Source: Agrocybe praecox (lineage: Eukaryota; Basidiomycota; Agaricomycetes; Agaricales; Agrocybaceae). From it: 64,000 bases of DNA. The notes under the pieces were generated by a model that saw only the letters and a program-made list of their open reading frames with translations, had not been told where the DNA came from and made no database searches. The stretch spans positions 3,720,001 through 3,784,000 of the forward strand of contig OZ024845.1 in assembly GCA_964017145.1 (NCBI GenBank), in the 5' to 3' direction. The position numbers and the translations under genes were made by a program. Of this stretch, positions 1,105-24,231 are shown piece by piece (positions within the stretch are counted from its first letter, which is position 1; each line of letters starts with the position of its first letter).

Positions 1105-1132
1105 CATCAGGAAAATGACTTTTGCTCCAAAA
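1105..1132 (+). repeat. Left terminal inverted repeat of the giant element
   Basis: Begins CATCAGGAAAATGACTTTTG. The first 11 bases match the inverted right end (24221-24231) exactly, and about two thirds of the next 17 also match. It abuts gag sequence ending at 1104. Confidence 0.8.
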
Positions 1133-1328
1133 AAGCTTTGGACAAATGCAATTCTGCTAAAGGCAATATGCGACTCTGAGGAGCTCTGTAAGACTCTGCA
1201 CAGCTTTGGCCTTGAGCGTTATATATAAAAAGCTTTGCAGATCTCTGGTACACTGTTAATGCTATCAGAGTTATCATCATAATTATAAAGTTAAAAAATC
1301 GAATATATTCATTTTGCAGACTATATAA

Positions 1329-4300
1329 TTAATAAATAGTCTGATACGAATATTTACTTAGCCAATTATTGACTAAAAAAGATGATGCTTCGTCAAGCAC
1401 AGTGAAAGGACTCCAGCTTTCTGGGATATTTTCTTTGAGAGAAGGAAAAATAGGGAAAAGCATACAGCTTTGGCGAATATCTTTCACCTTGACTATAGCA
1501 CCTTGTGTTCGATTTTGAGTGTTTGTTGTTTTCCGAATATTATACATCATCCCATGCTTAGCTTCTGCAGAACTGGCAAATTGAGTATACCATTCGACAT
1601 AAGCCAAGGGTTCATTCTTATCAGGCCAGTTTTCTGGTCGGGATCGTGGTCCATGAATTGTGTCGAGTGTATCTGGAAGTGTAAATATAACTCTGACTCT
1701 TCCTGTTCTTGTGCCTAAGTTTTAATCAGCTAATCTATTTATGGGAAATTAGCTAGTATTACTTACCTTTTACTCCTGTTGACTCTGCCATATCATCGAA
1801 ATTAATAATGGCAGTGTCAAACCACCCATTAGGAAGCTTGCTGGATTTTGCAATAGCTTTAACCACATCTTTTTCTTCTTTGTCATCATGAAGAGAATCT
1901 GGGTGAAAGCGAACCATATTGTAGACGTCAACTTTACCAAAAGGCAGATCTATTTCTTGTAGAGATCTGGTGTGGATAGGCTGGTCTAATAACCCACTGA
2001 TAAATGACTTTAAATGTCGAATAAAATCAGGTGCATTATGTGCTTCTTGGATTAAGGAAAGCGAACGGTTTGGAAAATTCGGGAATTTTGGAATTGAAAC
2101 ATTCCGGCCTTTTGTCATTGCAGATTTATTGTCTATTTGGCCAGAGTCAGAGGCGGTATCCATAAGGCTTGTAGGGCTTGAAGATCGGCTATTGGAAGAA
2201 AGAGTCTGCTGGTGTCTGTGAAAGCTAGTGATTTTCTCCTGTCTTGATAACCATTTGATCATTTGTGGAAATTCATTGCGCTGATTTGATGCTCGCCAAC
2301 CATGCTTTGCAAAGTCAATGTGGAGTCTTTCAAACATTTCTGTGTTGTAGTTGTCTGTTGTTCCAAAGTGCTTGATGGATTCCACGTAGTGAATTAGCGA
2401 ATGGAATTTTGGTATGTTGAAGTCTGAGCGAACCCCTGTATCCAGGAAATATTGCCGATTTTGGTGAAATCGCTTCAAAGCATCTTCTAAGTACCCTAAA
2501 GAAACTGTATCGTGTGAGGGATATTGGGCAATATAAATAAAATCTAGAAGCGCTGTAACAGCTTTAATGCCCTGGACTGGAATGCTCCCAACCAAACACC
2601 CAAGGAGAATCTTGGCCATGTTTTTCCGTTCAGGCCCAGATATTTGAGAGAGTGCAGATATTCCATTTTTGAACCGCCGTAAACCATATGCCGGAGGAAG
2701 AGAACGTATACGCTGGTCAAGCTGGGCTGGTGTTAAAATTGTTTGGCACCATGAAATAAGATGCTTGAAAACGCCTTGATAGAGTTGATGAAGTACATCC
2801 GGAGTCATTGATCTGTGTATATCAACCAGCGGAAAGTCCTGCCAAAAAGGGCTGTAAACGCTTCCTGCAACATCATAGCCCATACAATATTCATGGAACT
2901 TGCGAGGATTTCCACCTGACTCCGTCTTGCCTTCTTCAATTATTGATTTTGTCCACGCTTGTGTTCTGAGCTCCTTTGGAGCTTTATCTTGCAGCTCTGT
3001 CGCTTTTGCTCTGCATTTAAAGCACGTCCCTGACTTGCTGCACGTAACCAAGCATTGCTCTGGGTAGTCCGCAACATATGATGTGAGAATTGGAAAAACA
3101 TTCCTCACAGCTCCGTCGGAGCCAATCATTTCTACCCCAATTTTTCCCGCATTAATAAGAGGCTGAAGGACCATCTTCATGGATTCATGGAAAATGCGAT
3201 GGACTCTGGATCTGTGGTCCTGTTCTGATATTCGAGACCTGTCAATCTTCTCGACCGACAAATAGGCCAGAAGAATGCACGGATGTTTGCTAGGCTTACG
3301 ACGAGTGGCTTTTGGAATGTTGCCAATTGTAAGATAAACAGGATAAGCGGATTTGTTGCCAGAGAATTGTGTTAGTTGAGTTTTGTCCGTTGCAATAATA
3401 ACAGGAGCAATTGTCCCTCCTTTTTCAACTCTTGCCTGGAAAACGTTAGAAACTCAATTACTTCTGTGAGAAAATAAACGTACTTGCAGCGCATGCCACC
3501 ACTTTCCAGTCCACATCTCAGAATAAACCCGCGTTCCTTTGGTTGAGTCGGTGTATACCTTCTGAGGAGCATATACCATTTCAGGAGAGAGATCAGGGTC
3601 TTTCCACAGACTCTTGATTGCCTCAACAGGATCTCGAAATCGTATCGTAAATGTTTCGTTACTGTTATCACCAAAGCGAAGAGTCTGCTCTTCCCATTCA
3701 CCACCTCTGGTTGGCATAGAGTCCAGTTTTTGGTGGAGAGCTCTTATATTTCTATAAGAAAGACCTAGCTTCTCAACAACCTACGTAAAAGGTGGATTAA
3801 TATGTACCAATGAGCAGAGCAAAATTCACTCACCTCTGGAATTTCCAGTAGCCGATCAAAAGCCTTATGGCCTGGCCCGTCCTTTATAGCCCAGTGAGCA
3901 ATGTCCCAGTCAAGCTTGGATAAGAACGGATAAAATTGACTATGCCGCTCTTCCAATCCTTCATCTTCGGGTGCGATATAACATGGTGGTTGCTCTTGTC
4001 TGATGATTTTTCCGTCGCTTTTATTTGTAACTGTGATTTGTTGAAGTTCTTCATTGTCTTCAGGGGAATTTGATCCACTCCTTGACGCAGCGTCTTGTAA
4101 GCGGTTTTGAGCTGTTTGTGGTCCAGGCCCTGCATTGTCTGAGGAAGGAGGAAGGAAACGGAACATGTCGTGCCTGGGATAGAGATCTGATAGATCAAAC
4201 AAATCTTCATCTTCGTTGTTAGGATTGTACTCTGGCCACTCAGTGTTTTCATTATCTTGAAAGTTTGTTTCCGTTGCGATAGACATGACCTCTGGAAATC

Positions 4301-4436
4301 CTTGGTATGTTCCTAGATCTTTCAGTTTGCCTTTCATATACCATGCACACGAACGCGCAGTTGACAAATGTGACTGCATTGAGCCTATGGTCCTGAAGAA
4401 TTTGTGGCATGTTCCTGCTTCGCAAGGAATACTCAT
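1329..4436 (-). CDS. Plavaka-class DDE transposase, apparently intact
   Basis: Four exons join in frame: 4436-3834, 3780-3484, 3435-1767 and 1714-1329, about 984 residues, all with GT-AG introns of about 48-53 nt. The N-terminus has a Cys/His pattern (CEAGTC..H..C) like the zinc finger that opens Plavaka proteins. The core shows IIATDKTQLTQFSGNKSAYP then VYLTIGNIPKATRRKPS, the Plavaka signature with the likely first catalytic Asp. CSKSGTCFKCRA, DVLHQLYQGVFKH and TDNYNTEMFERLHIDFAKHG supply the putative metal-binding and later acidic positions. The C-terminus has the usual VRVIFTLP and PLAYVEWYTQF blocks. No stop or frameshift was found, so it could be active. It should act on the CATCAGG ends. 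Confidence 0.88.
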
Positions 4437-4572
4437 GGTGGTGGGAAAGCAAAGAGAAAATCACACAATCAGATTCGAATAGGGAGGAACATATGACGTT
4501 GAATAGCTCTATAGATAGATTATGCTCTGTAAGAAGTAGCGTATTATTAGAGAAGCATAGAACTCACAATAT

Positions 4573-5458
4573 CTACAGCATACTAAAGAGAACCTTATAC
4601 GCGCTAGCCTGCAGCTTTTGCCTTTTGTCTATTCCATCAATCTCCGACTTCATCTGTTGCTCCAAGATTTCGAGAAGATTTTCAATTTTTTGTTTTTTGT
4701 TCATTCGAGCTTTACGTGCTTGTTTTTTTTTGAGAATCTTTATGAATTTTGTATATCCTTTGAGAGTCGAAGCTGGTTTGAGAGAGCAAATCTTCCTTGA
4801 GGGTGGTGAAATTTGAACTGTCGAAGTTGAAAGTTGGGTCCTTGTTTCAGAATGCCAAGTGTTGTCGGAAGTGCCTTGCCTGGTCACTTCAGAATGTGTA
4901 TGGTGGAGAACAGGTGGCAGAGAAGGTGGGTTTGATAAGACCTTTGGAAATGCTTGCACAAAGGGAGATCCAAGCAAGGAACTTCCTCTTTGTGGAATAG
5001 CGTCGAAGTTGTGGTCCATTGGACAACCGCCATGGTCGCATTGTCCATGCATAGGCTTTGGAATATCAAGAGGTGGTTCACCTTTTTTCTGTGGCATATT
5101 TGGGCTTAAATTTTCATTTAGAATAAATAAAGAGAGAAGTTCTTACAAAAATGTATCCAGACCATCCTTCTATAGATGGAGGAGGTATACGGTTGTATCG
5201 AAGCTCGTACTTTTCAGAGAAATCACAAAACCATCCAGTTTGGGGTGGAGAGTCGTCAATAATGCTAGATGCATCTGCTTTATTGGAGGAGGGATACCCA
5301 GGGGAGGAGCTCTCATGTTGGGACATAGAGGTTCTTTGAGGCGTGTTGAAAGGTTGTTGAACCAAAACAGGACGCTGTGGCGATGACAGAACAATTTGGG
5401 CAAATTGTTTTTGCCTTTCTGGCTCTGAATCTGGAACCACCTCAGAGTAGAAGGACAT
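4573..5458 (-). CDS. Transposon-encoded hypothetical protein with basic coiled coil
   Basis: Two exons (5458-5147 and 5088-4573) join in frame to about 275 residues; the ATG at 5458 is the first in-frame methionine. The N-half is Ser/Pro/Gln-rich. The middle carries QCDHGGCPMDH, a Cys/His cluster that might bind metal. The C-terminus is strongly basic and probably helical (KKKQARKARMNKKQKIENLL, then EQQMKSEIDG). I do not recognise a family. It lies just upstream of the transposase start on the same strand, so an accessory DNA- or nucleic-acid-binding role is possible but unproven. Confidence 0.6.
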
Positions 5459-5670
5459 GATATAGAAAGCTGTAGCAAGAGTGTTAAGATGATCGTTGAC
5501 AAGCGTTTTTGTCAAATTCAACAAGACCTCTTTTTTGTCACATGATTAAGAACTTCAAGTGTATCGTAGAACAAAAAACAGTGGTTTTATTTTTAATATA
5601 GAAATAATAGAGAGAAAATATGATTTGCACAATTCAAAAAGAGGTGAGGAAGAAATGAGTTTAAAAAATA

Positions 5671-6297
5671 TTAAATCCTAGCATCAACAGTCTTGTCCTC
5701 AGGAAGAAAGTAACGAGAAGAAATTTCCGCATCCTCCATCAATGTCTCTACCTCACGATTCTTTGAGCTGTCCATACTTCCTGGTCGACTCTGCCTTTTG
5801 AGCCTGAGTATACTCTTGTGGATTGGTTTTGGTCGTAAGTTTCTTGGCCTTTCTAAACCAAGATATGGTGGTTGAATATAATTGACGCTTTTGGTTGTAG
5901 ACGTTGTCTTGTAAACATGTAAAGGAATATCTTGATGAATGTTATTATTAAAGACTTCAATTTTCCTTTGTTTGATTGGGCAAATAATAACTACAGAACC
6001 CATTTATTCAGAATATCACACAGCAAAAAATATGTTTAACTTACAGCGAACCCAGAAAAACCTCAATTTTCGGATCAACGTTTGAATCAAATTCTCTTGT
6101 GTGTTGGGCTCATTGGCTTGTGCGTTGGACCCGCTGGCTTGTGCATTGGACCCGCTGGCTTGTGTGTTGGACCCGCTGGCTTGTGCATTGAACGCGCTGG
6201 CTTGTGCGTTATTGTAATAATGCTTTTCTTCTATTGAGCTCATCAATGAGCAGAGATAGTCGTAAGAAGGGTTATTTGAGTGCTGGGAGGGTCTCAT
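5671..6297 (-). CDS. Transposon-encoded hypothetical protein with NAQASGS repeats
   Basis: Two exons (6297-6045 and 5990-5671) join in frame to about 190 residues. The first exon encodes several imperfect tandem copies of an 8-residue unit (NAQASGS with T/A changes) beginning at about residue 28, matched by tandem 24-bp DNA repeats at about 6100-6210. The second exon encodes a basic stretch (ERPRNLRPKPIHKSILRLKR) and an acidic end. No family is recognised. It sits between two other minus-strand genes of the transposon. The intron acceptor at 5991-5992 is inferred from frame and sequence. Confidence 0.5.
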
Positions 6298-6729
6298 AAT
6301 AATTGTGTTTTTGTTGGGTGGTGGTTTGAAGTAGGTTGTGGAATAAAACCAATATTTTTTCTGGGAAAAAGAACGTTTCTTCTCGGCAAAGAATGTGGCA
6401 CTGACACTCTCGTAAAGACTAAATTCTAGCCAATAATCTTGCCATTTTCAGCAGTAAATTCATTCTATGTGCAACGAGGCATATAAGTCAATATGTGGAA
6501 TAGAATTGATGTCTTGTGACACACCAAAGCGTATCCAAATACGAAACTTCTTCAAAAGCTGTGTTAGATCTTTTGATTTCACACGACCCACTTCAGGACT
6601 CACCATCCGTTTTTCATCACACTTTCAATCTGAACAAGAGAAAATTTTCATATATGATGGAAAATAGTAAGCAGGATTAAGTCTATTGAGAGGCTTTATA
6701 CTGAGCAGGACTGATTGAAATTGATATCA

Positions 6730-7071
6730 GATAGCCGACAAGGAGGACACCCTCCTACTTATGCTGATCCGATACATGATTGCGACAGACGTTGTTACAT
6801 TGTTATTGTTGGCAGGTGCACTGGGGTTTTTCTGAACTGGTATGAAAAGTATCAACATCATATTTGTTATCTTATAATGTACGACAGGATATCAACCGCA
6901 CCATTGATTTCTGGATCTATCAAAGATCAAGCAATCTGGCAAGGTGTCAGGACGGTATCTGAGGCTTATCGCCTGTATAGAGAGGCTAAGGAGGAAGGAA
7001 GTGTTAGAGTCCTTCGAGATTCTCCACAAGATGATATAACTTACGGAGATAGGAGTATTGCAGAGATGTAA
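6730..7071 (+). CDS. Viroplasmin / RNase H1 N-terminal-like reading frame, 5' end unclear
   Basis: Two exon-like segments (about 6730-6839 and 6888-7071, joined over a 48-nt GT-AG intron) read CYIVIVGRCTGVFLNW, then ISTAPLISGS, then WQGVRTVSEAYRLYREAKEE. The pattern V-GR-GVF-W followed by a later hydrophobic helix resembles the small RNase H1 N-terminal hybrid-binding domain (viroplasmin fold) common in agaricomycete proteins. There is no in-frame ATG in the first segment, so an upstream exon is missing from this call or the gene is broken. It is the only plus-strand frame in the left half of the transposon. Confidence 0.4.
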   Translation, partial: DSRQGGHPPTYADPIHDCDRRCYIVIVGRCTGVFLNWYEKYQHHICYLIMYDRISTAPLISGSIKDQAIWQGVRTVSEAYRLYREAKEEGSVRVLRDSPQDDITYGDRSIAEM

Positions 7072-7361
7072 AAACTGGAACATATTTTGCAAAATTTGAT
7101 TAAATGATCTTGGGACGATATCAACTTGTGCTTTGATTGATGCCTTGATGATAATCTTAATTGGAATCAGCACCTTGGGCATAATTATTTGTCATGAAAA
7201 CAGAAAAATGTATTTTGAAAAAATATAGGCGCAAAAACATAGAATTGTATTGAATTGTTTTCAGAATTCGGAAGCGTTTCATCACAAAAATTTTCTAAAT
7301 TCAAGCTAGCACGTCAGATGTCAAAATATTTAGGAGATTTTGAAGAAAAATTTACTTACAA

Positions 7362-8460
7362 TTAAAAAGGGTAATCAGGCTGAAGGTCATCGGAAAGAAA
7401 AGGGTCACGATGGTCAGGATGAACTTGAACATACTTGCCTGGGAACCATGAGGTTCCTGGAAAGTTCCTGGCTACATCATCATACCCAATTGGCCGTATT
7501 TCTTTATAGCACCATACCATCTTCCCTGCTATGTTGATTTGTTTGAATAAGTAGGCGTTGTATTCCCGGTAGAAGTCATGAAACATAACATTGTCGTCGT
7601 TGATGTCTAAGTGTTCATCTTCACCAAAAGTGATGTAGACTTGTTGTATATTTGCCAAGTTGCTTGTCCAATCGGTAACTTTGTTGACAATATCTTCATC
7701 ATCCTTATCATCATGCCAGTCGTCATTATAGAGAGAGAGGGGGGTTGCGACTGCCAAGGTGTGTATGTTGGGACAGCGCTCAATGAGAAGACAAAAGGCA
7801 GGTGTATGCCATGGAGCAGGAGGCCCAGTGGTGGCATTCTATTAAATAGAGAACATAAGTAAAATAAAGGAAGAATAATAAAAAGCTTGTACTCACGTCT
7901 TCAATCCTCGCCTCATATTCAATTCTCAACAACTCCAACCGACCAAAGATAAAATCCCAAGAAGTGCCCGAAAGTTGGAGATGGAATATAGGCCAATTGG
8001 CTCTAATACAGAGCTGGGTAATGCGAGAGAAGGATAACACCCCAGCAAGGTATTTGTTGAGGCTTGGTTTATGGGAGACAACGAATTCGAAGTAGTATAG
8101 GAGACAGAATCGGATGGGGAGAGTTCGGACAGAAAATATAAGTGGCTGATTTTTATTTGTGAATATGCGAGATATATTTGACCCCCGGACGAGCTTGACA
8201 AATTTCTCAGGATAGCATGGCCTGTTGGAAAAGACGGAGTTCATCCAAAGCGAGAAGAAATCTTTGATGTCCGTGTCATCAAAGAGCTGTCCCTTGTTGG
8301 TATCCTCAATAAACTCCAAGAAACGAGGGGTAGTTGTGATAAATTCCTTGATGTTATCTGACAAGTTCCCGTTACAAGAACTAACGTGAGCAGAAATGAT
8401 TTCCCGTTGGATTTCTAGTGGCAGAGAAGGCTTCGGGTGCAGGATAGATTCAGTGCACAT
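7362..8460 (-). CDS. F-box-like hypothetical protein carried by the transposon
   Basis: Two exons (8460-7897 and 7838-7362) join in frame to about 346 residues. ATG at 8460 was chosen because the longer frame upstream starts at a non-ATG codon. Residues 8-20 read HPKPSLPLEIQRE, like the LP-E-I-x-x-I start of an F-box. The rest resembles the many agaric F-box-like proteins of unknown target (SLWMNSVFSNRPCYPEKFVK, then CLLIERCPNIHTLAV, then FHDFYREYNAYLF). It is the outermost of four minus-strand genes in the left half of the element. A ubiquitin-ligase adaptor role is only inferred from the weak F-box match. Confidence 0.55.
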
Positions 8461-8548
8461 ATTTATGAAGAAAGGTAGTTGAGATGAGAGAAGAGGCAGG
8501 AAGGTAGGCTTGTTGATGGTGGCGTTGATCAACGTTGAGGTCAAGTTG

Positions 8549-8567
8549 AGGTAAATTACCTCGAAAA
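8549..8567 (+). repeat. Left copy of imperfect 19-bp direct repeat
   Basis: AGGTAAATTACCTCGAAAA here and AGGTAAATTGTCTCGAAAA at 18305-18323 match at 17 of 19 positions. They sit where transposon gene content stops and resumes, which suggests a duplicated junction around the central host-like block. Confidence 0.45.
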
Positions 8568-8599
8568 CGACTTTCGAGTTCCCTGATTTCCCACGCCAC

Positions 8600-9420
8600 C
8601 TTCAGATCAGTCATTCGTGCTCGCACTCAACTTCAATTAACTACACTATCTATTGTACGTTCTATCGTTACTTTACGAGTTGAGAGGGATGCCAATACCC
8701 TCGTGTCAGCGTGTTTTGACAACACCGCATCAGGGTCCAACAGCCAGGATACTTTCTGCACGAAATTGTTGATTACACCACAACCACATGCCCCACCTAT
8801 CAACGATACCTCCCGCAGAGCCTTCATGAATCATCTTGCCAATAACGGATTCAACGTCAACATGGTATGTCGGTGCACCCATAACATTTGATAATGTATG
8901 CTTATCTCTTGTTTAGGGATGGTTCATCCAAATTGAACCCTATGGGGGCTCCAACTCAGCCATCCATATGCACCAACGCTGTTACTGCAGACGCTACTGC
9001 TTACGCCCACCGAAACTCCATGTTCACATTCCAGTTCTACTCTTACTTGTTTAACAGTAACCCTCCCTATCTATCCAATGGCTTGACATTTGTTGACGGG
9101 ATGGTAAACAGCTTAGTCAATAACGGACCGGCTAGACGGGATATGGGTGCATCATACCCCAACTATGTCGATGATCGTCTCCAAAACTGTATGTTTATTT
9201 TTTATTTTAGTAAATGTCTCATCATTGCTTACCCCTTTGACCTTTACAGATCAACAGACGTACTTCGGATCACATTACTCCCGACTTCATGATGTCAAGA
9301 ACATCTACGATCCTTGCGGAATTTTCACCTTCCCCAGGCCAACAGGCGTTCAAGGAGATGTCGTTCCAAACCCGCCTGCTACCCCAGATGTTGGCATCCA
9401 GACAGGAACTGCGCCAATGT
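8600..9420 (+). pseudogene. FAD-linked oxidase (BBE domain) C-terminal relic
   Basis: Three exon-like stretches on the plus strand read LITPQPHAPPINDTSRRAFM, GWFIQIEPYGGSNSAI, then ASTNAVTADATAYAHRNSMF and GASYPNYVDDRLQN, ending TYFGSHYSRLHDVKNIYDPC. The YFG-NY/HY-RL-VK-YDP ending is the berberine-bridge (BBE) C-terminus of PCMH-type FAD oxidoreductases. The FAD-binding N-terminal half is absent, because the fragment starts next to the transposon junction near 8568. Frames shift between stretches, so it is a truncated relic. Confidence 0.7.
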
Positions 9421-9439
9421 GAAAAGGAGAGGTCGAGGG

Positions 9440-12125
9440 AGGAGGCACTGGCAAGGAGGCAGCAACAGCAAGTACAGTTGTCGCCTATGATGTTTCTGGA
9501 TCTGTTCTCCAATTTTCCTTCGTCCTCGTTCGCATACCCAAGTTCGTTCCTACACCCTGGTGAGGCCTCAGCGAGTCGAAGCCATTGGCACTGCCTGGCT
9601 CGCCATCATTTTCATTGCACCATAGCCTACAGCAGAGTCGCCAGCAGCAACATCAACAACATTTGATACCTATTCTTGTCCTTACACCTACGGAGGAACG
9701 CAAGATGTTCCAGGAAGAAAGGCGGAAATTCGAGCCAATGGCACAGTTCCATCTACCCCCTCCTGCTCCCCCTCATTGGCTTACTTCTGCTTCTCAGTCG
9801 AGCAGCCCATCGATATCGACGCTGCAGTCTTCCGCTATGAGTTCGCGTCCTGCACAGACGGTGGTGCATGTGCACACGCAGCGGGTAGTCACTGACGAAG
9901 GGTACAATACGCTCTTATTAACCAGGGGTGGCTCTCTCGTTACGAGTCCCGTTACAGCAGATAGTCCTACGGATAGCATACAACCTACGACTCCTACGAG
10001 AACGCTGAGCCCTCCTCAACTTCATCCTTCGCTGTTGCATCAACGTCCTGTACATTATCACATCCAACAACAGCAACTACGGGAGCGTGAAAGGGAAAGA
10101 GAAAGGCGGTACCAACATCACTTACAGCATATGCCGAGCAATGTCACCCTCTCCTCGCCATCTTCTTCATAATCGTTGGTGATGACTTCCGTGTCGTCCT
10201 CTCGTGCTGGTCCGGGTCCTGGCGGTGCTGGGTCCGGTATGAATACGAGCAGGCAAGCTTCGTATTCTTCGTATTCGCAATATTCAAATCCCATATCGCC
10301 GTTAGCGGGTCAGTCGCCGATTGACGCTAGTTATTATTCGGTTTCGGACGATAACAATGATGATTTCAATGAGGAGGGAGGAGGGGCACAATATGCGAGG
10401 GTTAGGAATGCACTTGTGAGTAGTGGTGCTTTTGATGGTGGTGCTCTTGGCGGAGGAGGGTTTATACGTCCGCACGGCACGCGCCATCGGTTACAACATT
10501 CGACTTCGATGCCGCTTGCTTCTATTCGTGGTACAACTTCGGGATTAAGTTCTTCAGGTCCTGTTGGTTCGAGTGCAGGTGCAGGACCGAATTCAGGCTC
10601 TGGAACCTATGGGTTGAGAAGCCCAGGAGGAGGAATTATTCCTGCTCAGTCTCTACCCTCTTCACCTCCTCGTTCGCCTGTTATTTCTCGTTATGGAACT
10701 GTAGTTACATCCAACCCCAGATTAACGTCTAATCATGCACTTCCGAACAGTAAAACGACCACAGTAGCATCACTTACTGCTGCTTCGAGTACCACAACTA
10801 CGGCGACGAATACGCCACAGTCCAACACCACACGCCCGCCTGTTACGACGATGAGGAGCTCGACTATGCAGACTTACCTCATCGATACGCCCATTTTGTC
10901 GCCTGAGAAAATCGCACAGTTGGAGGCGGAGGCAGCAGCGGGTATACCATATTCCTTCCCGAAGTATCCTGATCCGTCGTTGAGGTTGACTAAGGCTGCA
11001 AGTTCGAACGTGAGTACTAGCACGGCAACTCCAACTCCAACTACGAGCACGACCATGATTGGCAATGCAAGGATGTTCACGAACACAAGGACAAGTGAGG
11101 CTCAGAGCACCGTCGCATCTGGTTCTGGTTCTAGACGAGGAGCAGATGGACCGGCGGTACAACTCCTTGCTGTCAAACGTAGTCCGGAGAGGGAGAGGGG
11201 AATATTGAGGAAGAAGTTGAGTGGGATGAGTGTGAGTGGTGATGTGATTACGAATAGCGGAGGGAAAGGAGGTGTTACTACTGGGAAAGGTGTCAAAGGA
11301 GGAGCGGAAGAGATAGGTGGCGGAAGTAGTAGCTCACCTGGCACGGTCAAGCAGAAGCCCAAGCTGGCCCTTCATGGCTTGGAAGGATCAAGTGCTGCTG
11401 CTGCTGCTGCTGTCAGTGCCGCTGCGAATACAGAGATCCATTCACCCACCCAGGCAACGAAGAGTTATCAATATCAGCAACAAGCACAACATCGGAATAG
11501 GATCCCAAATGCATTGAGGAGTCCTACGCTGATGATGAGTGCTGCTGGGCTGGCACATTCCTCTGCGTCGACCTCAGCTTCGGGCTACGCTGTCAACTCT
11601 GCATCGAGCTCGTCTTCGACTATGTCTGCTTCGGGCATACCGCTACCAGTACCACCAGTTCCTGCACAACAGGCTCAACCCCCTCCTCCATCCAGTGGTG
11701 CGACGGGCACGATATCAGCCATCCTACGACGCGTTCGCTCTGGCTCGAGTTTGAATTTGCGGTTGGATTCGAATAGGGATGGTGGGAAGAGCAGTGCTAG
11801 CCCGCCGATGCCTTTGTCCCCCATTGCGAGTGCGAGTGCTGGTGTGAGGTCGTTTTCGCCGCCTGTTCCGGGTGCAGGTGCAAGTGGAAGTGGAAGTGGG
11901 GGTGGTGGTCCAAGGGGGAGAGGTGCAGGTTCGCAATCGCCCCCTGTGCCGGGTGTTGGACTGGACAGAGATGTTGGTGGTGGTGCGAGTAATGCGAATA
12001 GGGAGAGAGAGATGTCCCCTGGTCCGTTGTTACCTGCGAATCAGAATCAGGGTGGAAGTACGGGTAGTGGGAAGAAGTTGAGGAAGGGTGCGTTGGATTC
12101 GTGGAGGAGGCGAGGAGGAGGGTGA
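9440..12125 (+). pseudogene. Long Ser/Gly/Gln-rich low-complexity protein, one in-frame stop
   Basis: From about 9585 to 12125 a single frame encodes roughly 845 residues, broken only by a TAA at 10170-10172. It is rich in Ser, Gly, Thr, Pro and Gln, has an Arg-Glu repeat (RERERERERR), polyalanine from GCT repeats near 11400, and one more ordinary segment (ILSPEKIAQLEAEAAAGIPY, then SFPKYPDPSLRLTKA). No catalytic domain is recognised. It may be a regulatory or scaffold protein tail; a function cannot be given. It is classed as broken because of the stop and the missing clear start. Confidence 0.45.
10261..10330 (+). repeat. 70-bp segment duplicated at 12197-12266
   Basis: The 70 bases here recur with a few changes about 1.9 kb downstream, just after the Ser/Gly-rich frame ends. 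The second copy continues in unrelated sequence, so it is a partial local duplication. Confidence 0.75.
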
Positions 12126-12196
12126 TGATGCTGAAGATGTTATAATTCTTTTTCTTTTTCTTTTCCTCCTCTTTTTCTTGTTTTGCAGGCATACTT

Positions 12197-12266
12197 CATA
12201 TTCTTCGTATTCGCAACATTCAAATTCTGTATCGCCGTTAGCGGGTCAGTTGCCGATTGACGCTAG
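12197..12266 (+). repeat. Second copy of the 70-bp duplicated segment
   Basis: Near-identical to 10261-10330, including the run coding SYSQ-SN-ISPLAGQ-PIDAS in the first copy. It directly follows a pyrimidine-rich tract and a CAG, so it resembles a misplaced exon start. Confidence 0.75.
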
Positions 12267-12479
12267 CTTACCTGCTTTGCACTAACTCTTCCTCTACTCC
12301 CGCAGCCTATTGGACTCCTATACGCCTTTGTCAGCCGTCTCATCCTAGAGATCTCATCCCAGAGAAGAACCACTGCACGCCCGAAAGCTGCGCAGAGCTC
12401 ATCGACGTCGATGAACACTTACGACAACTCGGATTTCTCCTGCTGGATCGGCGACGACTAGACGGTTTACCAGCTCCTG

Positions 12480-13490
12480 CCCCGTACGTACGATGAAGAT
12501 GTGGATGGTTTCATGCCGAGACCGATACCAGCCTTCGTCCACGTAGCCTGGGCAACCGTATTGGTTGATCTTATCGACTCTGGCTCTGTATATCGACTCT
12601 GGCTCTGTACTTGTCTTTGCGCGTCGACGACTTTGAGAGGGTGCTGGCTGCTGCTGGGTGGAACGACGTCCACAACGAAGGGTTCACGTTCACCAATGTC
12701 CTGGGAAGGCAGAAAGCAGATGAACCACTCACGGAGCTGTAACCGCATTACGTTCAACACCACCCTTCGGATTGTCAAATGATCTCAACGATCAGCATGG
12801 ACAGCATCAATTTGATCAGATGCCGGATAAGCAGAACGATGCACTCAAGTTCTTTCAAATCCTTTCATTATGCAGTACACAGCCTCTGCATCGTCGCCGG
12901 CGACCAAGGAGAAGCTTAGCCATCCGTATCCAGAACAATGACCTACACCACCTCAACATGAACATCGCTCGTACGTTCCCTGGATATGGATCCCAGAACT
13001 ACCTAGAGCCGTTACTAGGGTCAATGAGGTCTTTCTTTTGGGTGGTTTTTGTAGGCGAAAGTAGTGCCGCTGGTGAGAATGGTGGTAGTGTGCGCTGGGC
13101 GAGCAGGGGCTGCCGTCGTCGTCGTCATCTTCGTCGACTGTTGTGAGTGTGGATTTGGATCCGGTCGATCCTGCGACGCCGTTGAGCGCAATTCATCCTT
13201 GGGTTCAGCCTACACACCACCCGCACCCGCACCCGCACCCGCACCCTCATTCACACCGGTGTCAGCACCCACATTCGCATTCGCACTCGCACTCGGGCAT
13301 TGATACAGTTCTCGCCGGTGTTAGCTTCCCGTATTCCACTTCCTCGGTATCAACATCAGCATCGGCCGTTGAATCGCCTGCGCCTTCCTCTTTTGACAAT
13401 GCCGGTGATGTCTTTGCCCTTCCTGTGGCGGCGTCGATCCGAATTCGACCTACGATATGGCCACATATGTCCACTGCAGTAAGCTAGCAG
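12480..13490 (+). pseudogene. His-repeat protein relic, paralogous to 37.5-38.6 kb
   Basis: The plus strand carries scattered coding-like pieces: FTNV near 12690, RRPRRSLAIRIQNNDLHHLN near 12900, and a His/Pro tract (HPHPHPHPHPHSH and HSHSHSHSGID) at 13210-13300 followed by VSFPYSTSSVST and VESPAPSSFD. The same order appears at 37600-38400 outside the transposon, with HSHLHSHSGIDTALTGVNFP. Frames are broken in both copies. No family is recognised. The histidine tract comes from an ACCCGC-type microsatellite followed by CAY-rich DNA. Confidence 0.45.
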
Positions 13491-13499
13491 CAGCAGCAG

Positions 13500-14245
13500 T
13501 CCGATGTCATTATCAGCCTGATAGTGTTTCGTCTGGCGTCAATGCAATGTATCAGCATGCAGACAATGGATACTGGATGCGGTCCTCCATCTTCCGTCAT
13601 TGTCGTCGCGTGTAATTTTGCCTCCAAGGAGAAAACAACGCGAAGAGAAGGGCCAAAAGCAAAAGGAGATAGGCGCATGAGAAAGCGACTGCGGGTGACG
13701 GAGAAAGCGGAGAAGGGGAGATGGAAGGAAGGGAGAAAGCCCGCAGGATCTAGCATTTTAACAAATCAGCGTGCATAGAGCGACGGACGACACATACCGG
13801 AACACAATAAATTTTCCATATGATGAAACGGTCCACGTCAACCCCCTTGTGTATTCCTAGCGGACTCTCTGTGGTGTCTGCAGACCTTCGTTTGAAATGG
13901 GTGCGCACTGAGCTGCACAAGGTGGATACGCTGCCAGGTGGTGGGCCAGCGACCACGTTCTATGACTTTGTTGGTCCTAGCCCCGTCAACCTTTGGAGTA
14001 CTTCTGATGAATACAGTCTACTGTGCTCGGTGACTCGTTATCAAATATAACATTCATGCGCCATACTCATGAAGACCTAGCAAGACTTCCCGTTCTCTAT
14101 CCGTATACCGGAGTCCACGCCGCCCACTATCGCACTTGGTCGCCAGCGTGTGTACGAGGGGTAAAAAGTATGATCGTACAAATTTCAAGTTCAAACCCGG
14201 TGCTCATTATTTGATCGCAGGGGTTTCCTCCGAAAAGCGAAATCA
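13500..14245. other. No gene recognised
   Basis: I see only short unsupported reading frames and a CAG triplet run near 13487. Nothing links it to a family. Confidence 0.4.
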
Positions 14246-16281
14246 GTGGTCGTCTCGTCTGTCGCGCCCATCATCGATAAACATGATTTTCACTCTACAT
14301 GGCCAGTATACTGTCAACCCTTTCAACCCCTCTCTCCTCTCCCCATTTTCACTAATCTTCCCTCCTCTTCCCCTTCAAATCGCGGTCCCTATCTCTCTTC
14401 TAGCCATCTTCTCGCTCCATCAATCCAAGACGTCGACTCTCAACCCATCGAAGGTGTTCTCGCCCTAGGTGACTCCGTCGGCAAGGTTCTCTTCCTCCAG
14501 GGCGAACCCATCCGTCTCGTCTCAAACGGCGCTCTCTATCATTCCCACAGAGAGCCAGCTCAGGAGTTCCAGGTCCTCAAGCAGCTCGGTATAGGAAGCT
14601 ACGCCGTCGTCTATCTCGTTCAAGAGGTCCTCTCTCGTCCCCAGAGCTCAGAAGACGGTCGCATGTCCACCATCGGTCTTATGGACTTTGACCAGAATCC
14701 TGCCCAGATTGTTTATGGTCGAAAATACGCTATCAAATGCTTGTCAAAGGCTAACCTCGATGAGGGGGCTCTAGCTTTGCAAATGTCCGAGGTTCGTTGT
14801 TCTTTGTGGGGAAAAAAACATGCATGCCAATTTCCTTTTTAGGTTACCATCCATCAATCCCTCGATTTGGATTCAAATATTGTCGCTCTCCGTAGAACTC
14901 TTGAAACAGACGCCTTCTTGCTCCTCCTCCTCGAGTATGTTTCAAGAGAAGATCTCTTTTACTTTCTAGAACAAGCAAGGGACCATTATGATATCGATAA
15001 TGCCCACACCACAGACTCGTCAGTCTCAACGTCTCATACTCCCCCAACTCCTAGCTTGCTTTCAAATCTACACCCCTCTCAATTGCTTTCTCATACATGT
15101 CTCTGTCTCATCTCTTCCATGTTTTGTCAAACCTGTGATGCCGTAGCAGCCTGCCATGCACAGCAAGTCTTCCATTGTGATATCAAGCCCGAAAACTTTA
15201 TCGTCACTGATGGTGCCTACACTACTTCTGATGGTCGTCTCGAATGCAAGGTCATCGTCAAGCTTACAGACTTTGGCCTTTCCACCACCAACGAAGAATC
15301 GGCTGATATGGATTGCGGCAGCGTCCCTTACATGAGCTATGGTCAGTCTTTTCCCTTTCTTTATTCAAAACAAGTTCTTGACCCACGCTCTAGAATGCAG
15401 GAACAATGTCGCTCCTACTTATCGTCCTCGTGCTGCCGATGTCTGGTCATTGGGCATTGTCTTGACCAACATGTATGTCTTTTTTTTCTAGTCAAATATT
15501 GTTATTCATTTCCGACAGGCTGTACCATGTCAACCCGTGGACCGACATCACACAAGATGCTTGCTCTTCTTTTGCGCTTTACCTCAACCAATCTCTTGAA
15601 AGGGAAATCAGTATGGCATCAAAGTCCTCATCACATCGTTCGGCTTCCACCAAGTGGTCCCCTCCTGTGGGGGCTGCATTCGAGCTGGCGTCTATGTATG
15701 CTCTTCCTGCCGCGATGTTGACAAACACTCGACCTTCCTCCGTCTCCGCATCCACACAGGCATCTGCTGCTGCTTCTGTACCAATACCCGTCACCAAGAA
15801 ACCATCGAAATGGAAACTCAGCTTTGGCAAAAACAGTGCTTCAGCCCTTACAAGTGCTGCTGCTGGTGGTCGTCGTGTTTCTCTCAGTCGGAGAAGTATC
15901 TCCTCCACGTCATTGGACCTTTCCCCATCACAGGCAAAGGCAACGACTGCCAGCAACGTGAGCAGTCTTCCCAATGGTCTTAATGCTCCGAACCCACTTC
16001 CTTCTGGTATTCCTTCCAAGGCCGAGTCGGAAGCTGCCTCTACCTGGAGTCGAGGTCGCTGTGCCAGGGATATGCACGCCCCACTTCGTTCTTTACCACC
16101 TCCACAGAACATCAGCCCCACTCGGGTTCCTGCCACACCAGCTTCTCCCAATCCGGTGAAGACTGAATGGCTCTCTGCCGAGGAGGAGAAACGGCGCTTC
16201 CAGCAAGCCCAGGCTGCCATTGCCCGAACTCAGCGTGTAGCACCAGATTCCCGCACCTACCCACACAAGAGACATCTCTGA
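14246..16281 (+). pseudogene. Ser/Thr protein kinase relic (SKS1/RAN1-like), C-lobe deleted, HCD for HRD
   Basis: Four exons (14246-14791, 14843-15341, 15394-15472, 15519-16281) join in frame to about 628 codons, but no ATG opens the frame. Kinase landmarks are the Gly loop LGIGSYAVVYLV, the VAIK Lys in YAIKCLSKANL, CDIKPENFIV, the metal-binding DFGLST, and the APE-region equivalent GSVPYMSYECRNNVAPTY, then AADVWSLGIVL. The catalytic-loop HRD reads HCD, a C-to-T change at CpG. After NPWTDITQDACSSFALYLNQ the frame passes straight into SLEREISMASKSSSHR, so the rest of the C-lobe is missing. It resembles nutrient- or meiosis-linked agaric kinases, but this copy is very probably inactive. Confidence 0.75.
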
Positions 16282-16320
16282 TCCAAAACTGCAATCATCT
16301 GGCAACAGTGTGTTGGATCC

Positions 16321-16590
16321 CCCGTTTCATCACCTGATGGGACGATAACAACACCTGAACAAGACTGCTTCAAGATCGAGCGAGCCATCGTAGAAGGTTG
16401 TGATGGTTATAGTGCAGCTGATCTAGCTGCGCTTGTGAAATAAGCTGGTGTAAACTCTGAGACACTCTCAGAGCTTTGGATAAAATGGATGAAAATGTTG
16501 AAAGCCCTAATGTTCTTGTTGGGCTGGAGGATTTCGCTCAGGCCATGGAGGAGGTCACCCCGAGCGTCAGTCTGCGCAGAGGAAAAAATA
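16321..16590 (+). pseudogene. RIX7/NVL-like AAA ATPase C-terminal relic
   Basis: One frame reads CFKIERAIVEGCDGYSAADL, then AALVK, a TAA stop, then AGV and ETLSELW. A second frame continues DKMDENVESPNVLVGLEDFA, then QAMEEVTPSVS. The GYSGADLAALVREAG and HFxxAMExVTPSVS motifs are the end of the second AAA module of ribosome-biogenesis ATPases of the RIX7/NVL type. Only about 85 residues remain, with a stop where Glu is expected and a frameshift. The ATPase core is absent. Confidence 0.65.
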
Positions 16591-18304
16591 CCACAACATT
16601 GACAGTCGCGAACAAGGCATTATCAGAGAGAACTTGGATCCATGAAGCACGCGAACTCCCGACTGAAATTCTGACATCACGTGGATACTTCGTTGACACT
16701 GCTCAAGATAGCTTCGTTGTCTTCTTCATCTCCTTCACATCCGCATAAACCCCCCATTCGATCTGCATTGTCCTCAGCGTCAACTTTGACTCCAGCATCC
16801 CACCTCACCGACTACTTCAGCATTTCCTTCAGCTGCGAATCAGTGGTTCCACCTGGTCAATTTCAGACGACGATGACAGCACTAGCAGCAGCTTTTCTCG
16901 GTCACATTCATGCTCCAGTACTTGCTTCACCTGGCATGCGAAACATAACACCAGAGAAGAAAAGGAAAAAAATACCAGTGTCGTTGTCTCTAATAGAGGC
17001 TTATAAACGCCAAGAACGCACGCGCAAGGCATTGGAACGGATCACGAAGGATGAAGACAATAACAACAACGATGTGGTTGAAGAAGGAGAGGCTGAAGAA
17101 CACGGCGGCGGCGACAACAACGAGAGTGACGAACACAAGCCAATACCACTATCAGCTCCATTGTCGTCATCGACCTCTCGTCCAGAAATGATGTCCGTCG
17201 ATTCGTATTACGGTGTCAATACAGGAAGAGGTGCTGTGACACCCGCGGCGGTGTTGCTTGCCTCGTGAGGCGAAGAACGGGCGAAGAACGAGAGCAAGAG
17301 GGGCAGCAGAGGATAGTAGAGAGGTTGAGAGGCATCTGAGGATGCAGTTGGATAAGACTAGGGATGTGAAGCGGAGTGGGTTGGGTGAGTTGTGTTTTTT
17401 TTTATTTTTTTATTTTTATTTTAAATTCGGGCGTTCTCAGTCTTTTCTTCTTTACTCCTTTTCTTTGTTCATCTTTATTTCTTTTATTACTGCCGCGGGC
17501 ACCCTTACTTCATGTCCTCTCTCACATTTCTCGCTGTGATGTATTTTGATTTTATTCCCACTGCTCTCCTCCAACCCTTGTACATGAACCAACCAACTAA
17601 CCTACTCTTTTTATCCATCCAGCATCCCTACTCAAACCCATCACTATGCATTCTATGTCCACATCCACGACCACAACCTCAACCATCACAACCTCCATAA
17701 TCACAGACCCAAACACAGAACCCGACCCACCCACAGACTATGGTGCAGATGACAACAGTGCTGCCGACCTCATTGCATGTGCACGCGGCGGAAGCTTGGG
17801 CACGCTCGGTGCGTTCGCGGGTATTTATGCTCATGTGTATGGTTGTGGGGGATGAGGCCAGAGGAGAGTGTCCAGTTGCGAGTCCGGTTTCGGCTGCAGC
17901 TGTGGAAGAAGGGGATAAAGGAGCGAGGGAGTGAGGAAGATGTACCAGCAGCAGTAGCAGCAGGTAAATGACCATATCAACAACGATTAGCAACAGCAGC
18001 ACGACATCAAGTTTGGAAAGTGTTGTTGGTGCTGGAACAGCTGCGTGAAGTCGTCAGCCTCAACTTGGACCTCAGTATCAGCCCCAATGTCAATCAAACC
18101 CAAATCCACCTCGTTTAGTGTCTGCGAAAGTCTGGGGAGTTTTGCGGGATATGGTTATGGGTGTGGGCTCGGAAGTTTGAGTTATGGCGGATTGGGTTCG
18201 GGGCCAAGGACAGGCGCAGTTTATAAGAACATTACAGCATAATCTTTCTTACTCTTTGTACTAGTGTACCGTTTTTATCAACTCTCTAACTGCAGAATAC
18301 ATCT
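16591..18304 (+). other. Low-complexity coding-like tract, no recognised gene
   Basis: Plus-strand frames at 16681-17268 (Ser/Thr-rich, then an acidic and Asn-rich run with RTRKALERITKDED) and 17646-18240 (Thr-rich) look like pieces of disordered proteins. No family match and no consistent splicing are apparent. A T-rich stretch at 17395-17480 separates them. Confidence 0.35.
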
Positions 18305-18323
18305 AGGTAAATTGTCTCGAAAA
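18305..18323 (+). repeat. Right copy of imperfect 19-bp direct repeat
   Basis: AGGTAAATTGTCTCGAAAA, 17 of 19 identical to 8549-8567. Transposon-type gene content resumes immediately downstream. Confidence 0.45.
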
Positions 18324-18472
18324 TGCGCACTCATTCTCCTTATGTCCTTGCGATCACATGATTTAAATTCTTTCCGTTGCCGCGTTACGACGCGACTCCA
18401 ACGCGACTCGACTTCTAATATCATAACATCTATTTGTGCAGCATCCTCCACAACGTGTTTTGAATTACTGCT

Positions 18473-21400: not shown

Positions 21401-21595
21401 CTTGAAATGAAGAACGGCCACATGGTAATTTTTCTTTCTACAAAAATCAGTCACTTCAATCTTCATTACAAAGGCGAACGGGGGTCCTTTGTTTTACATT
21501 CTGATAATTCTGGTAATGATTGGGTCAACGACAGAAATGGTTGGTCACAATCTAATTATATGAACGTATTTTATAAGCATAGAAAGGGTCAATAG
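18473..21595 (+). CDS. TET/JBP-family 2-oxoglutarate/Fe(II) dioxygenase, many short introns
   Basis: A multi-exon gene starting ATG 18473 and ending TAG 21595. The N-terminal part is acidic and basic low complexity. The middle reads VCRTFKRNRTTVLESIKVQS, then GPKTLAKYYDDGSKFCFLAA and VYLLALIAASRLRSEVRFL, once a 48-nt intron (19488-19535) is removed. The C-terminal third is the oxygenase: LHRDFNDMLLCIVLA carries the HxD iron ligands, VGGDLCLMEPGIRLEMKNGH is the strand pair, and ISHFNLHYKGERGSFVLHSD supplies the distal His and the Arg that binds 2-oxoglutarate. These enzymes oxidise 5-methylcytosine or thymine in DNA. All catalytic residues are present. Fungal TET/JBP genes are known to travel with KDZ-type transposons (Iyer et al.); here the partner is a Plavaka element. 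The base modified is inferred. Confidence 0.85.
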
Positions 21596-21740
21596 TATAC
21601 ATTGTATGTACTTGTTTTGTCATGTTGAAAAGATCCCTCGTCAATTTGCATACATATCTTTAGTTCTTTCTCTCTTATTCTCTTCATCCATCATTCTTTT
21701 CACGCTCTCTTGAAATACACAATTCTTCTTTGCTATCAGG

Positions 21741-23757
21741 ATGAGTGGAAAGAATTTAAGAAGTATGTCAACTGACTGGAGTGATTCATTATTAATGCTT
21801 CTTAATTTTGCTCTTTAGGCGCCACGTCAAATAATAAAGGAAAACCTTCTTCCAAGGGAACAGCCAAGGGAACTAACTCTAAAGGTCAAAAGGGCAATAC
21901 TAAGCAGAAAGCGTCTCCAGACCTTCCTCTTCATGCAAATGAGGAAGAACGCCTTGAGTTGCTTGAGTTTGCTCGTCTTCAAAAAAAATTCAAAAATTTT
22001 AACAAAGCTCAGGAGAAAGCGGTCAACCAAGGTTCAGTTTTATCTTAATTTGTTTTTTTGCTGTTAAATAAAATCTCTGTTTAGCTATTGCAAAGCGGAA
22101 CACGGCTATGATGGAAGAAGAAGACGGTACCAGCACTATTGACTCTGAAGAGCGAGCGCCTAAGCGCCCAAGGGCCAATCCAAAAATTATTCAAGACAGT
22201 GAAGACGAAGACATTCAAACATCTCTGGGGCCTTCTTTAACCCAGAGGGATGCTATTGATATTGCTGACAGTGATAAAGATTCCGGTAAAAGTGTCGGAA
22301 AAGGAGTAAATGACGACACTGACATTGAAGAAGAAGACATTGCTCTTGGGGATAATGAGTCTATATCGGAGAAATCTGGGCCTATTGAAGAGAAAAGCAT
22401 AGATATTTTTCCGGATAATGGAGTGCGTTTTCTCCTCTTTAACTTACTTGTAATTTACTTCTTTTTAGATCATTGCGTCTACTGCATACTTGGCACGATC
22501 TCAAACTCCTTCCAACACCAGCTATTTGACTCCAAAGAAAAACTCAGCCAAGGTCAAGGAAACTGACTTTTCGCCGGATACGCGCCAACTTGCTATAGCA
22601 TCAAAGTCCCAAATGCGAAAGACAACAATATTTGAAGAATCGTTTTCCGCAAACAGCCGAAGTGACAAGATGGATTTAGCATGGAAAACTGTCAAAGAGG
22701 CTGCTGTAGGTAGCGCTAATCCTATGGTCAAAGAGGCATATAAGCGCGCATGCAAAAACTCCCAGACCAAGCAGGACATGATTAAATTTGTGCGTAACTC
22801 ATTGTGTTTATTCCATTGCTGTTGCTGACTTGTCTAGTGCTCGTATGCTCGAATTGGTCTTATGAGCAATATTGTAACACTTGCTAGGGATAGCGTCAAG
22901 AGCTTTTATGGTCTTAGTGGGAGCCAAGATGAAATACGATTTGCGGTTGAATGGCTTCTTAAAGAAGCTAATTTTATGTTCGGAAATGTCAACGCAAAAG
23001 TACGTCAGTAACCTTCATTCTGACTGCTATGAATTTTTATGATTCTTGTAGGATCAAACATTGGATAGCAATATGCCTTTTGGATGCGAGCTAATCAAGG
23101 AAGTCATTGAAGCCCAATGGTTTCCTAGTTCTGGCCGATCAAAAACCGATATCGACACCAGCGAGCAAATTATTAAGGAGGGAATGCTACCTGTTAACTT
23201 AATTATTATTGTTGTTGTTGCGGTATGCTTATTTTTATTTATTCTATCTTGTATCAATTTTTGACTAGTTTTAGATTGAACATGCATTGAAGGAATGGTC
23301 TCTTGGGAGTAAATCAACAACGTTGATCCATTTTTCTGAGGACGCGGTTCAAAAAGGGTGCGCTAATAATCCTTTTATGACGTCTAATACTTACATGGCC
23401 CTGTGGGTATTACCAGATTCACAACTCATTACAATAATTGGAAACATATTGAATTGCAAACGAAGACATGGCCTATTTACTGGCGGAAGACGCTGCTATC
23501 TAGAATCCTGTAACGCACATTCATATTTATCTCAAATTCAACATTTAGCTGACTAATTATTCCCTGATGCCAACAGAGAAAACTACCGAAAGGGACACTT
23601 TCATGTCAGTAACGCCAAAGCAGTCCTCGCTAAGGTTGATTTTGGGGCTCTTGATCAGATTGCAGAGGCTGCTTCTACCATGGCTCATATTGAGCACACT
23701 GCCACTGCTCTAGATGGACAGGATCCCAATGGGACATTTGGAGACGATGAATCCTAA
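21741..23757 (+). CDS. DUF6532-like transposon cargo protein
   Basis: ATG 21741 to TAA 23757, with at least seven short introns. The N-terminus is basic and Ser/Lys-rich (SSKGTAKGTNSKGQKGNTKQ), then acidic. The C-terminal half has the agaric DUF6532 layout: KSFYGLSGSQDEIRFAVEWL, FGCELIKEVIEAQWF, GRSKTD, then NLIIIVVVAIEHALKEWSLG and HYNNWKHIE. Frame is kept across the late introns, for example into ENYRKGHFHVSNAKAVLAKV, so it appears intact. Its biochemical role is unknown. It starts 146 bp after the TET/JBP stop on the same strand, and the two form the right-hand cargo pair of the element. A nuclear or DNA-linked role is a guess from the basic N-terminus. Confidence 0.7.
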
Positions 23758-24203
23758 TACAGAAATCATTTCCTTTTATATATTCTATTGCAACGCTTCA
23801 ATTTGCTATTTATTTTTGCCCTAGCTATATAAAATTTGCATGCACGTGGTTTTGATCAAAAGAAAACCGATTCATAGAAAGAAATAAAGCTGTCAGAGCA
23901 TATCCTATAATTAGGGAAATGCTAGTGAAGGAAAGAAGTCAAAGCAATCAAAGCGCATAGAAGCATTATACTACTACATGGCCGCATAAAGATATTAAGT
24001 GTTAAAGCACCACAGAACTAAAAAAGACAAAAGTAGTTCAAAGGGTGTACAAGCTTTACACGACTGCAAAGTTAAAGAAAGACTTCTGAAAGCTAATCAA
24101 AGCTGGAATTTTTAAAGGCACCTTGCTTTGAGAGTCTTTTAGAAGGCTTTCTAACTTTTTGAGCTTTGGGTATTCTGGAGACACCAGGAGACACATAAAT
24201 AGC
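23758..24203. other. Right subterminal region of the giant transposon
   Basis: About 450 bp between the DUF6532-like stop and the right terminal repeat. It is AT-rich with repeated AAAGC and AGCTTT motifs, which also occur near the left end (AAAAAGCTTTG at 1131 and 1229). These may be subterminal transposase-binding sites, but that is inference. Confidence 0.35.
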
Positions 24204-24231
24204 TTTGAAATCAATGGTTGTTTTCCTGATG
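24204..24231 (-). repeat. Right terminal inverted repeat of the giant element
   Basis: Reads TTTTCCTGATG at 24221-24231, the exact inverse of 1105-1115. Gag sequence resumes at 24232. Confidence 0.8.

Follow-up and report, generated by a model that had tools for sequence, protein, structure and literature searches.

A 23-kb TET/JBP-carrying Plavaka transposon of Agrocybe praecox with an interior probably assembled from copied host DNA

The PlavakaB transposons are described as having 5'-CATCA..TGATG-3' termini and target duplications of 2-3 bp, and all TET-carrying Plavaka elements are placed among them in the available text of a recent survey (Kojima 2025; PMC12730594), where such elements are reported from Agaricus bisporus and Gymnopus confluens. 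The element considered here lies at positions 1105-24231 of a 64,000-nucleotide stretch of Agrocybe praecox DNA (the window; C6:3720001-3784000 of a 59-Mb assembly, C-numbers denoting contigs of the same genome, in which donors and copies were sought). Its CATCA/TGATG termini (4/4 genomic copies with both ends), its 2-bp target duplication (3/4), its Plavaka transposase and its TET/JBP gene are all shared with the TET-carrying PlavakaB elements; it differs from them in that neither a mosaic of host genes nor the size of the elements is mentioned in the main text of that survey (PMC12730594). The family is thereby a known one, in that the predicted features fit TET-carrying PlavakaB, an assignment made by described features. 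We put at roughly 80% the probability that the window holds a cut-and-paste transposon of PlavakaB type, autonomous and equipped with a TET/JBP gene, which reached its size of 23-26 kb by repeated copying of host DNA into its middle. A search of the open-licence literature by title and abstract found no description of a Plavaka element with captured gene fragments.

Capture of this kind is well known among the Pack-TYPE elements of plants (PMC13317346, PMC8903248, PMC1947982) and animals (PMC8277862), as far as the available parts of these sources go. The plant Pack-MULE and Pack-CACTA elements, the soybean CACTA element Tgm-Express and the animal Pack-TIRs resemble the window element in being terminal inverted repeat (TIR) elements with copied host-gene fragments, the source of which in the animal Pack-TIRs is proposed to be gap filling by template switching (PMC8277862). 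Pack-TYPE elements are described as non-autonomous in the abstract of PMC8903248, whereas the window element keeps an intact 984-aa transposase; although its way of working is similar, it is not classed among them. Among fungi, capture of a host gene by a DNA transposon is also seen in the hAT transduplication of histone H3 in Dothideomycetes, which in the available account concerns one intron-less gene in hundreds of copies, inactivated in Pseudocercospora fijiensis by repeat-induced point mutation (PMC6710886). Here, in contrast, many loci are involved, both introns that were checked are kept and the copies are few. The Helitrons with captured genes of Pleurotus ostreatus, as excerpted in PMC4289320, are likewise basidiomycete transposons with extra genes, but are rolling-circle elements. 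Finally, the En/Spm (CACTA) elements of Chondrus crispus, at 16-20 kb, are similarly unusual in size and belong to a related superfamily; four to five open reading frames (ORFs) are reported for them, and a host-gene mosaic goes unmentioned in the passage concerned (PMC6431247).

The sequence CATCAGGAAAA stands exactly at 1105-1115 (+) and 24221-24231 (-), and the terminal 20 bp of left and right agree at 16/20 positions in the window copy and at 17/20 in the other three paired copies. This motif alone is weak evidence, because a third exact CATCAGGAAAA lies partnerless at 58378 and because the five matches observed with at most one mismatch were reached in 5/100 shuffles. The heptamer AGCTTTG occurs 11 times in the whole element (both strands), with 6/11 within 260 bp of an end. 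Genomic matches were found for the left 201 bp (six) and for the right 200 bp (four), each of which takes in the proposed terminus, the right-end match of the C5a copy covering 195/200. Four paired copies result: those of the window (23,127 bp), C12 (26,200 bp), C5a (26,047 bp) and C11 (24,006 bp), with the C8 and C5b copies having the left end only. Identical dinucleotides flank three of the four (aa/aa, ga/ga, ga/ga). The initial annotation had proposed a Plavaka element of 23 kb with these ends and had called for a genome search for family members, whose ends, if placed elsewhere, would have spoken against it; in all four paired copies similarity to the window ends at most 1 bp from CATCA/TGATG, and together with the PF18759 transposase these shared termini bear the proposal out. 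The C11 and C12 copies are 99.5% identical to each other. The C11 copy lacks a 1.8-kb repeat that lies at about 5229-7023 of the fetched C12 stretch; this repeat has many relatives in the genome and shows an 8-bp overlap at its target, and by these features it is a recent insertion of another transposon. The C5a copy contains a piece of ~100 bp with more than 10 near-identical copies genome-wide, which is probably part of a small repeat.

The element interrupts a gag gene of a Gypsy retrotransposon. The best 40 of 70 candidate Gypsy copies found with the right flank were scored, and 181 bp around the site was taken for the eight best non-self copies. All eight of these paralogues have an uninterrupted gag site, the closest of them identical at 98/98 positions to the joined window flanks with one TT removed and the other seven at 94-96/98; if both TT copies stay, the ungapped match falls to 62-67/100. 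The insertion was therefore exact, with a 2-bp duplication, and the earlier statement that an AA/TT duplication restores the gag reading W-D-D-F-V-Y-E-F stands. This confirms that the DNA transposon at 1105-24231 is complete, that its ends are defined and that its target duplication is 2 bp long. Helitrons are defined by a RepHel protein and by the lack of both TIRs and target duplications. A Helitron was considered and rejected, as a TIR and a 2-bp duplication are present and no helicase was found among the 15 element ORFs scanned against Pfam (E 0.01; the multi-exon models scanned were those of the TET and DUF6532 genes).

The copies differ between a left core, extending to about 8.6 kb, and a right core, beginning at about 18.5 kb. 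Own-genome searches with the interior of the window copy and with portions of those of C5a and C12, followed by alignment to the fetched donors, assign a union of 8,554 of the 23,127 bp of the window copy to host-derived sequence (7,511 bp minus the C2 family, matches <60 bp and the C10:3654 remnant) and 8.0-9.3 kb in the other paired copies. Overall the donors amount to about 16 distinct loci on 10 contigs, with C9 counted once and with the repeated C2 family and matches that are too short (one of 54 bp at C10:3635058 and several of 39 bp at C13:3188850) left out. The interiors of C11 and C12 draw on C10:3633, C9, C10:3654, C13:1731, C12:3101-3104 and C13:3191-3196, so that one of their donors is on C12, and that of C5a on C4 (two loci), C13 (two), C9, C2:4060, C8:393-398 with C8:1546 inside it, and C3:874; sequence of C13:3190-3196 kb is found in all five long copies. 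Six donors have Pfam domains, namely protein kinase, arrestin C, AAA-ATPase, NF-X1 zinc finger, oxysterol-binding with ankyrin repeats, and GMC oxidoreductase. Matches of 83-87% on C4, C13:1310, C2:4060 and C3:874 could be other than genes. Some pieces are nested: two C5 pieces flank the kinase piece (Table 1), which therefore lies inside the C5 piece, and the GMC oxidoreductase piece is nested in the oxysterol-binding gene piece with a loss of 9 donor bases. Both of the introns checked, in the kinase and NF-X1 genes, are retained, and the pieces were therefore copied from DNA.

The donor loci are still in the genome, and their frames are open in all eight piece comparisons. Frameshifts or internal stops occur on the element side in 5/8: three C9 pieces (window, C12 and C8 copies), the oxysterol-binding exon and the longer of two NF-X1 exons. 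Neither kind of damage is present in the shorter NF-X1 exon, in the kinase exon or in the C9 extension taken by itself. Judged by these reading frames, the captured pieces are mostly decaying. The initial annotation had seen in the element a vehicle for large gene transport, an idea that does not fit the finding of a mosaic of copied pieces, broken in five of the eight comparisons, whose donors remain and of which the kinase piece lacks 549 bp of its donor; the sequences do not support transport of working genes. The open genes that are carried are instead the predicted equipment of the element itself, the transposase, the TET/JBP-type gene and the partly modelled DUF6532 gene.

Table 1. Features of the transposon and its captured pieces (window positions)
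Feature	Position	Strand	Basis or remark
Whole transposon, 23,127 bp	1105-24231		DNA transposon, CATCAGGAAAA inverted ends
Target duplication, left copy (AA)	1103..1104		Copy flanks and empty sites
Left terminal inverted repeat, 5'-CATCAGGAAAA...	1105..1124	+	Terminus recurs in 6 genomic matches
Subterminal region with AGCTTTG repeats	1105..1364		3 repeats here, 3 in the right 260 bp
Plavaka transposase (PF18759 + DUF6830), 984 aa	1329..4436	-	Exons 4436-3834, 3780-3484, 3435-1767, 1714-1329
Left core, ORFs of unknown kind up to 273 aa	4573..8601	-	Common to the four paired copies and C8
Copy of C10:3633080-3633735, 86%	8720..9400	-	Donor alignment
Copy of C9:3474293-3477088	9399..12177	+	90.7% identity to 9776, 96.0% past it; the latter part interpreted as re-copied from the donor
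82-bp duplicate of 10249-10330	12185..12266	+	Element-type at 4/5 diagnostic sites; proposed rejoining point
Remnant of older capture, C10:3654236-3654430, 83%	12446..12663	-	Fuller in C11 and C12
73-78% similarity to multi-copy family concentrated on C2	12726..13496	+	F-box-like by eye
Copy from arrestin-domain gene locus, C5:3621800-3622301	13894..14317	+	Arrestin_C domain outside captured part
Copy of protein kinase gene, C3:2130004-2132327, 94%	14315..16084	+	One intron retained; 549 bp of donor missing
Second C5 piece, C5:3623489-3623713	16082..16304	+	Donor alignment
Copy of AAA-ATPase gene, C7:2568789-2569077, 89%	16313..16596	-	Donor alignment and Pfam
Old decayed capture related to C13:3190773-3193591, 71-79%	16689..18108	-	Donor alignment
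TET/JBP-type dioxygenase gene, 11 exons, 869 aa	18473..21595	+	PF12851
DUF6532 (PF20149) gene, model provisional at the last intron	22108..23757	+	Pfam match
Right terminal inverted repeat, ...TTTTCCTGATG-3'	24212..24231	-	4 genomic matches
Target duplication, right copy (AA)	24232..24233		Copy flanks and empty sites

One of the captures can be followed in its course. The C9 fragment is common to the window, C8, C11 and C12 copies, and 55 diagnostic sites, at which C12 and C8 agree against the C9 donor, distinguish element-type from donor-type sequence. Along the window piece, 19/22 sites are element-type up to 9773 and 28/33 are donor-type from 9780, a division of the sites matched in 0/10,000 shuffles. 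Identity to the C9 donor is 343/378 (90.7%) before the switch and 532/554 (96.0%) in the shared part after it, and remains at 1770/1844 (96.0%) in an extension of the fragment that is present in no other copy. At its end this extension adjoins the 82-bp duplicate, which is element-type at 4/5 sites, compared with 2/5 in the first copy. We interpret the switch as the trace of repair synthesis for which the host locus served as template.

That the transposase is intact, as the initial annotation had it, holds for the full model of 984 aa, with four exons, three GT-AG introns and no stop; PF18759 matches its main exon at E 1.1e-83, with 367.7 bits for the whole-domain genome match. Its frame is likewise open in the C5a and C11 copies, and is broken in C12 by a 389-bp insertion, in C8 by two 1-bp deletions and a later stop, and in C5b by truncation together with a stop. 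The ratio of nonsynonymous to synonymous divergence (dN/dS) of the transposase is 0.10-0.15 in 13/15 copy pairs, including the window copy against each of the other five, and 0.46 and 0.66 in the two closest pairs, which have few changes; the transposase is thus shown to be under purifying selection. The TET coding columns are free of stops in 5/5 copies and of frameshifts in 4/5 (C5a has a 1-bp deletion), with a dN/dS of 0.20-0.31 in 9/10 copy pairs. PF12851 scores 38.9 bits on the spliced 869-aa model against a cut-off of 34.9, and a single exon alone reaches 25.6, under the cut-off. That single exon found three proteins in a homologue search and nothing relevant among solved structures; the spliced protein found none at E 1e-3 in a search whose words came from the first 500 residues, the domain beginning near residue 692.

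Together, these observations suggest a sequence of events in which a double-strand break inside an element copy, after excision or at a stalled fork, would be repaired by copying ectopic chromosomal templates and closed by end joining, with host fragments added. Nested captures, the kinase piece in C5 and the GMC piece in the oxysterol-binding piece, fit insertion at such internal breaks. A later break may re-invade the same donor by way of a fragment already captured; in the C9 case, a break in the captured fragment would have led to invasion of the chromosomal locus, copying beyond the former limit of the fragment and, finally, joining to the far side of the break. Captured fragments would then decay, with the transposase and TET genes kept, the TET enzyme presumably acting to counter methylation silencing of the element, as has been proposed in print.

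Several points weigh against this account. Animal Pack-TIRs favour nearby templates on the same chromosome in the account available (PMC8277862), and none of the identified donors of the window copy lies on its own contig, C6. The C11 copy, despite its complete ends, has non-matching flanks (tg/tt). The change of identity at the C9 switch has a Fisher P of 4e-5, a value that is partly circular for the shared part, where the split point comes from the same alignment, and less so for the extension; moreover, the re-copied C9 part has a stop relative to the donor frame. The switch test covered the C9 fragment only, and the other captures fit other routes of templated insertion equally. In a scripted count, which excluded the C2 family and any junction with a separation of over 15 bp and took each shared junction once, 8/26 junctions overlap by at least 2 bp, compared with 29% of 200 simulated blunt joins (P = 0.49), and the remaining junctions have 0-1 bp (7/26) or 1-15 bp of unmatched sequence (11/26). 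The joining step therefore has no positive signature, and microhomology, of which 2-3 bp had been noted by eye at several junctions, was rejected as evidence in the absence of any excess over simulation. Lastly, at the aligned acceptor of the first TET intron the other four of the five copies have AT for AG, and the 5' part of that gene model is uncertain.

Other origins for the mosaic were weighed against repair synthesis. Other mobile elements, such as Helitrons or fragment-carrying DNA transposons, are unlikely to have produced the interior by inserting into a Plavaka of normal size. Nested insertion does happen in this family, as the 1.8-kb repeat in C12 and its absence from the C11 twin demonstrate; but many donor pieces abut within a few bases, the passage from element to donor sequence inside the C9 fragment is unexplained by insertion, and for nearly every piece one non-element place stands among the best candidates scored, the exception being C2:4059 kb, with two weaker relatives. 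Joint excision of two adjacent elements along with the intervening host DNA has been proposed for plant Pack-CACTA (Catoni 2019, as cited in the available part of PMC13317346) and gains some interest from the assignment of Plavaka to the same CMC-type group in the survey text (PMC12730594). Such a process predicts one contiguous host segment between two halves of the element, whereas the pieces here come from many dispersed loci, interleaved and nested, with the donors still present. The nested pieces contradict it as the sole mechanism, and we consider it improbable.

The large size and the several host-type gene pieces, three of eight comparisons being without frameshift or stop, would also suit a Starship-like vehicle with accessory cargo genes useful to its host. 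This is very improbable, given that the other five comparisons are broken, that the pieces vary between copies, and that a Plavaka transposase is present and no tyrosine-recombinase domain was found in the 15 element ORFs scanned. Least credible of all is an assembly artefact joining unrelated contigs. Large mosaics are a classic sign of misassembly, and the analysis was made on the assembled sequence; yet the empty paralogues fit to the base and four copies share their ends, so that the join error at 1104 or 24232 envisaged at the outset is not indicated. The pieces also differ from their donors by about 4-29% and are therefore not misplaced donor reads.

With repair synthesis as the preferred reading, what is new, as far as the searches go, is a host-DNA mosaic in an autonomous fungal Plavaka together with a readable re-capture event. 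The novelty is one of fragment capture inside an autonomous element, with a visible trace of one capture, and not of gene transport. As donors and several copies are present in one genome, the start of copying, its extent and the rejoining can be read base by base, and gap repair, long discussed as a model for how DNA transposons capture genes, becomes directly testable. Automatic annotation may take captured fragments for host paralogues. Fragment capture is now seen among the Plavaka elements equipped with TET/JBP dioxygenases, and this has a bearing on the way these genes spread; their movement between superfamilies is called passive transfer in the available survey text (Kojima 2025; PMC12730594). 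More tentatively, and with more doubt than confidence, PlavakaB might represent, in fungi, a lineage of large autonomous transposons that sample genes, go on acquiring host DNA by ectopic repair synthesis and re-enter donors through captured fragments, and the same process could explain the entry of accessory genes such as TET/JBP and their movement between DNA-transposon superfamilies.

A few further features accompany the element. Within the left core, the region 5900-8600 returned no host donor in the own-genome search, and the ORFs at 7362-8601 (-), whose sequence is common to the long copies, had neither a Pfam match nor a host donor. The C2-family stretch at 12726-13496 likewise had no Pfam match; another relative of that family lies in the window near 38.1 kb. 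Near-identical pairs aside, synonymous divergence between copies is about 0.11-0.17 for the transposase and about 0.05-0.11 for the TET gene, as if the halves of the element had been exchanged between copies. The named relatives of the transposase are mostly from what we take to be Agaricales mushrooms. Genome-wide, the Plavaka transposase domain gives 136 match rows, counted exon by exon, and further Plavaka families probably exist in this genome.

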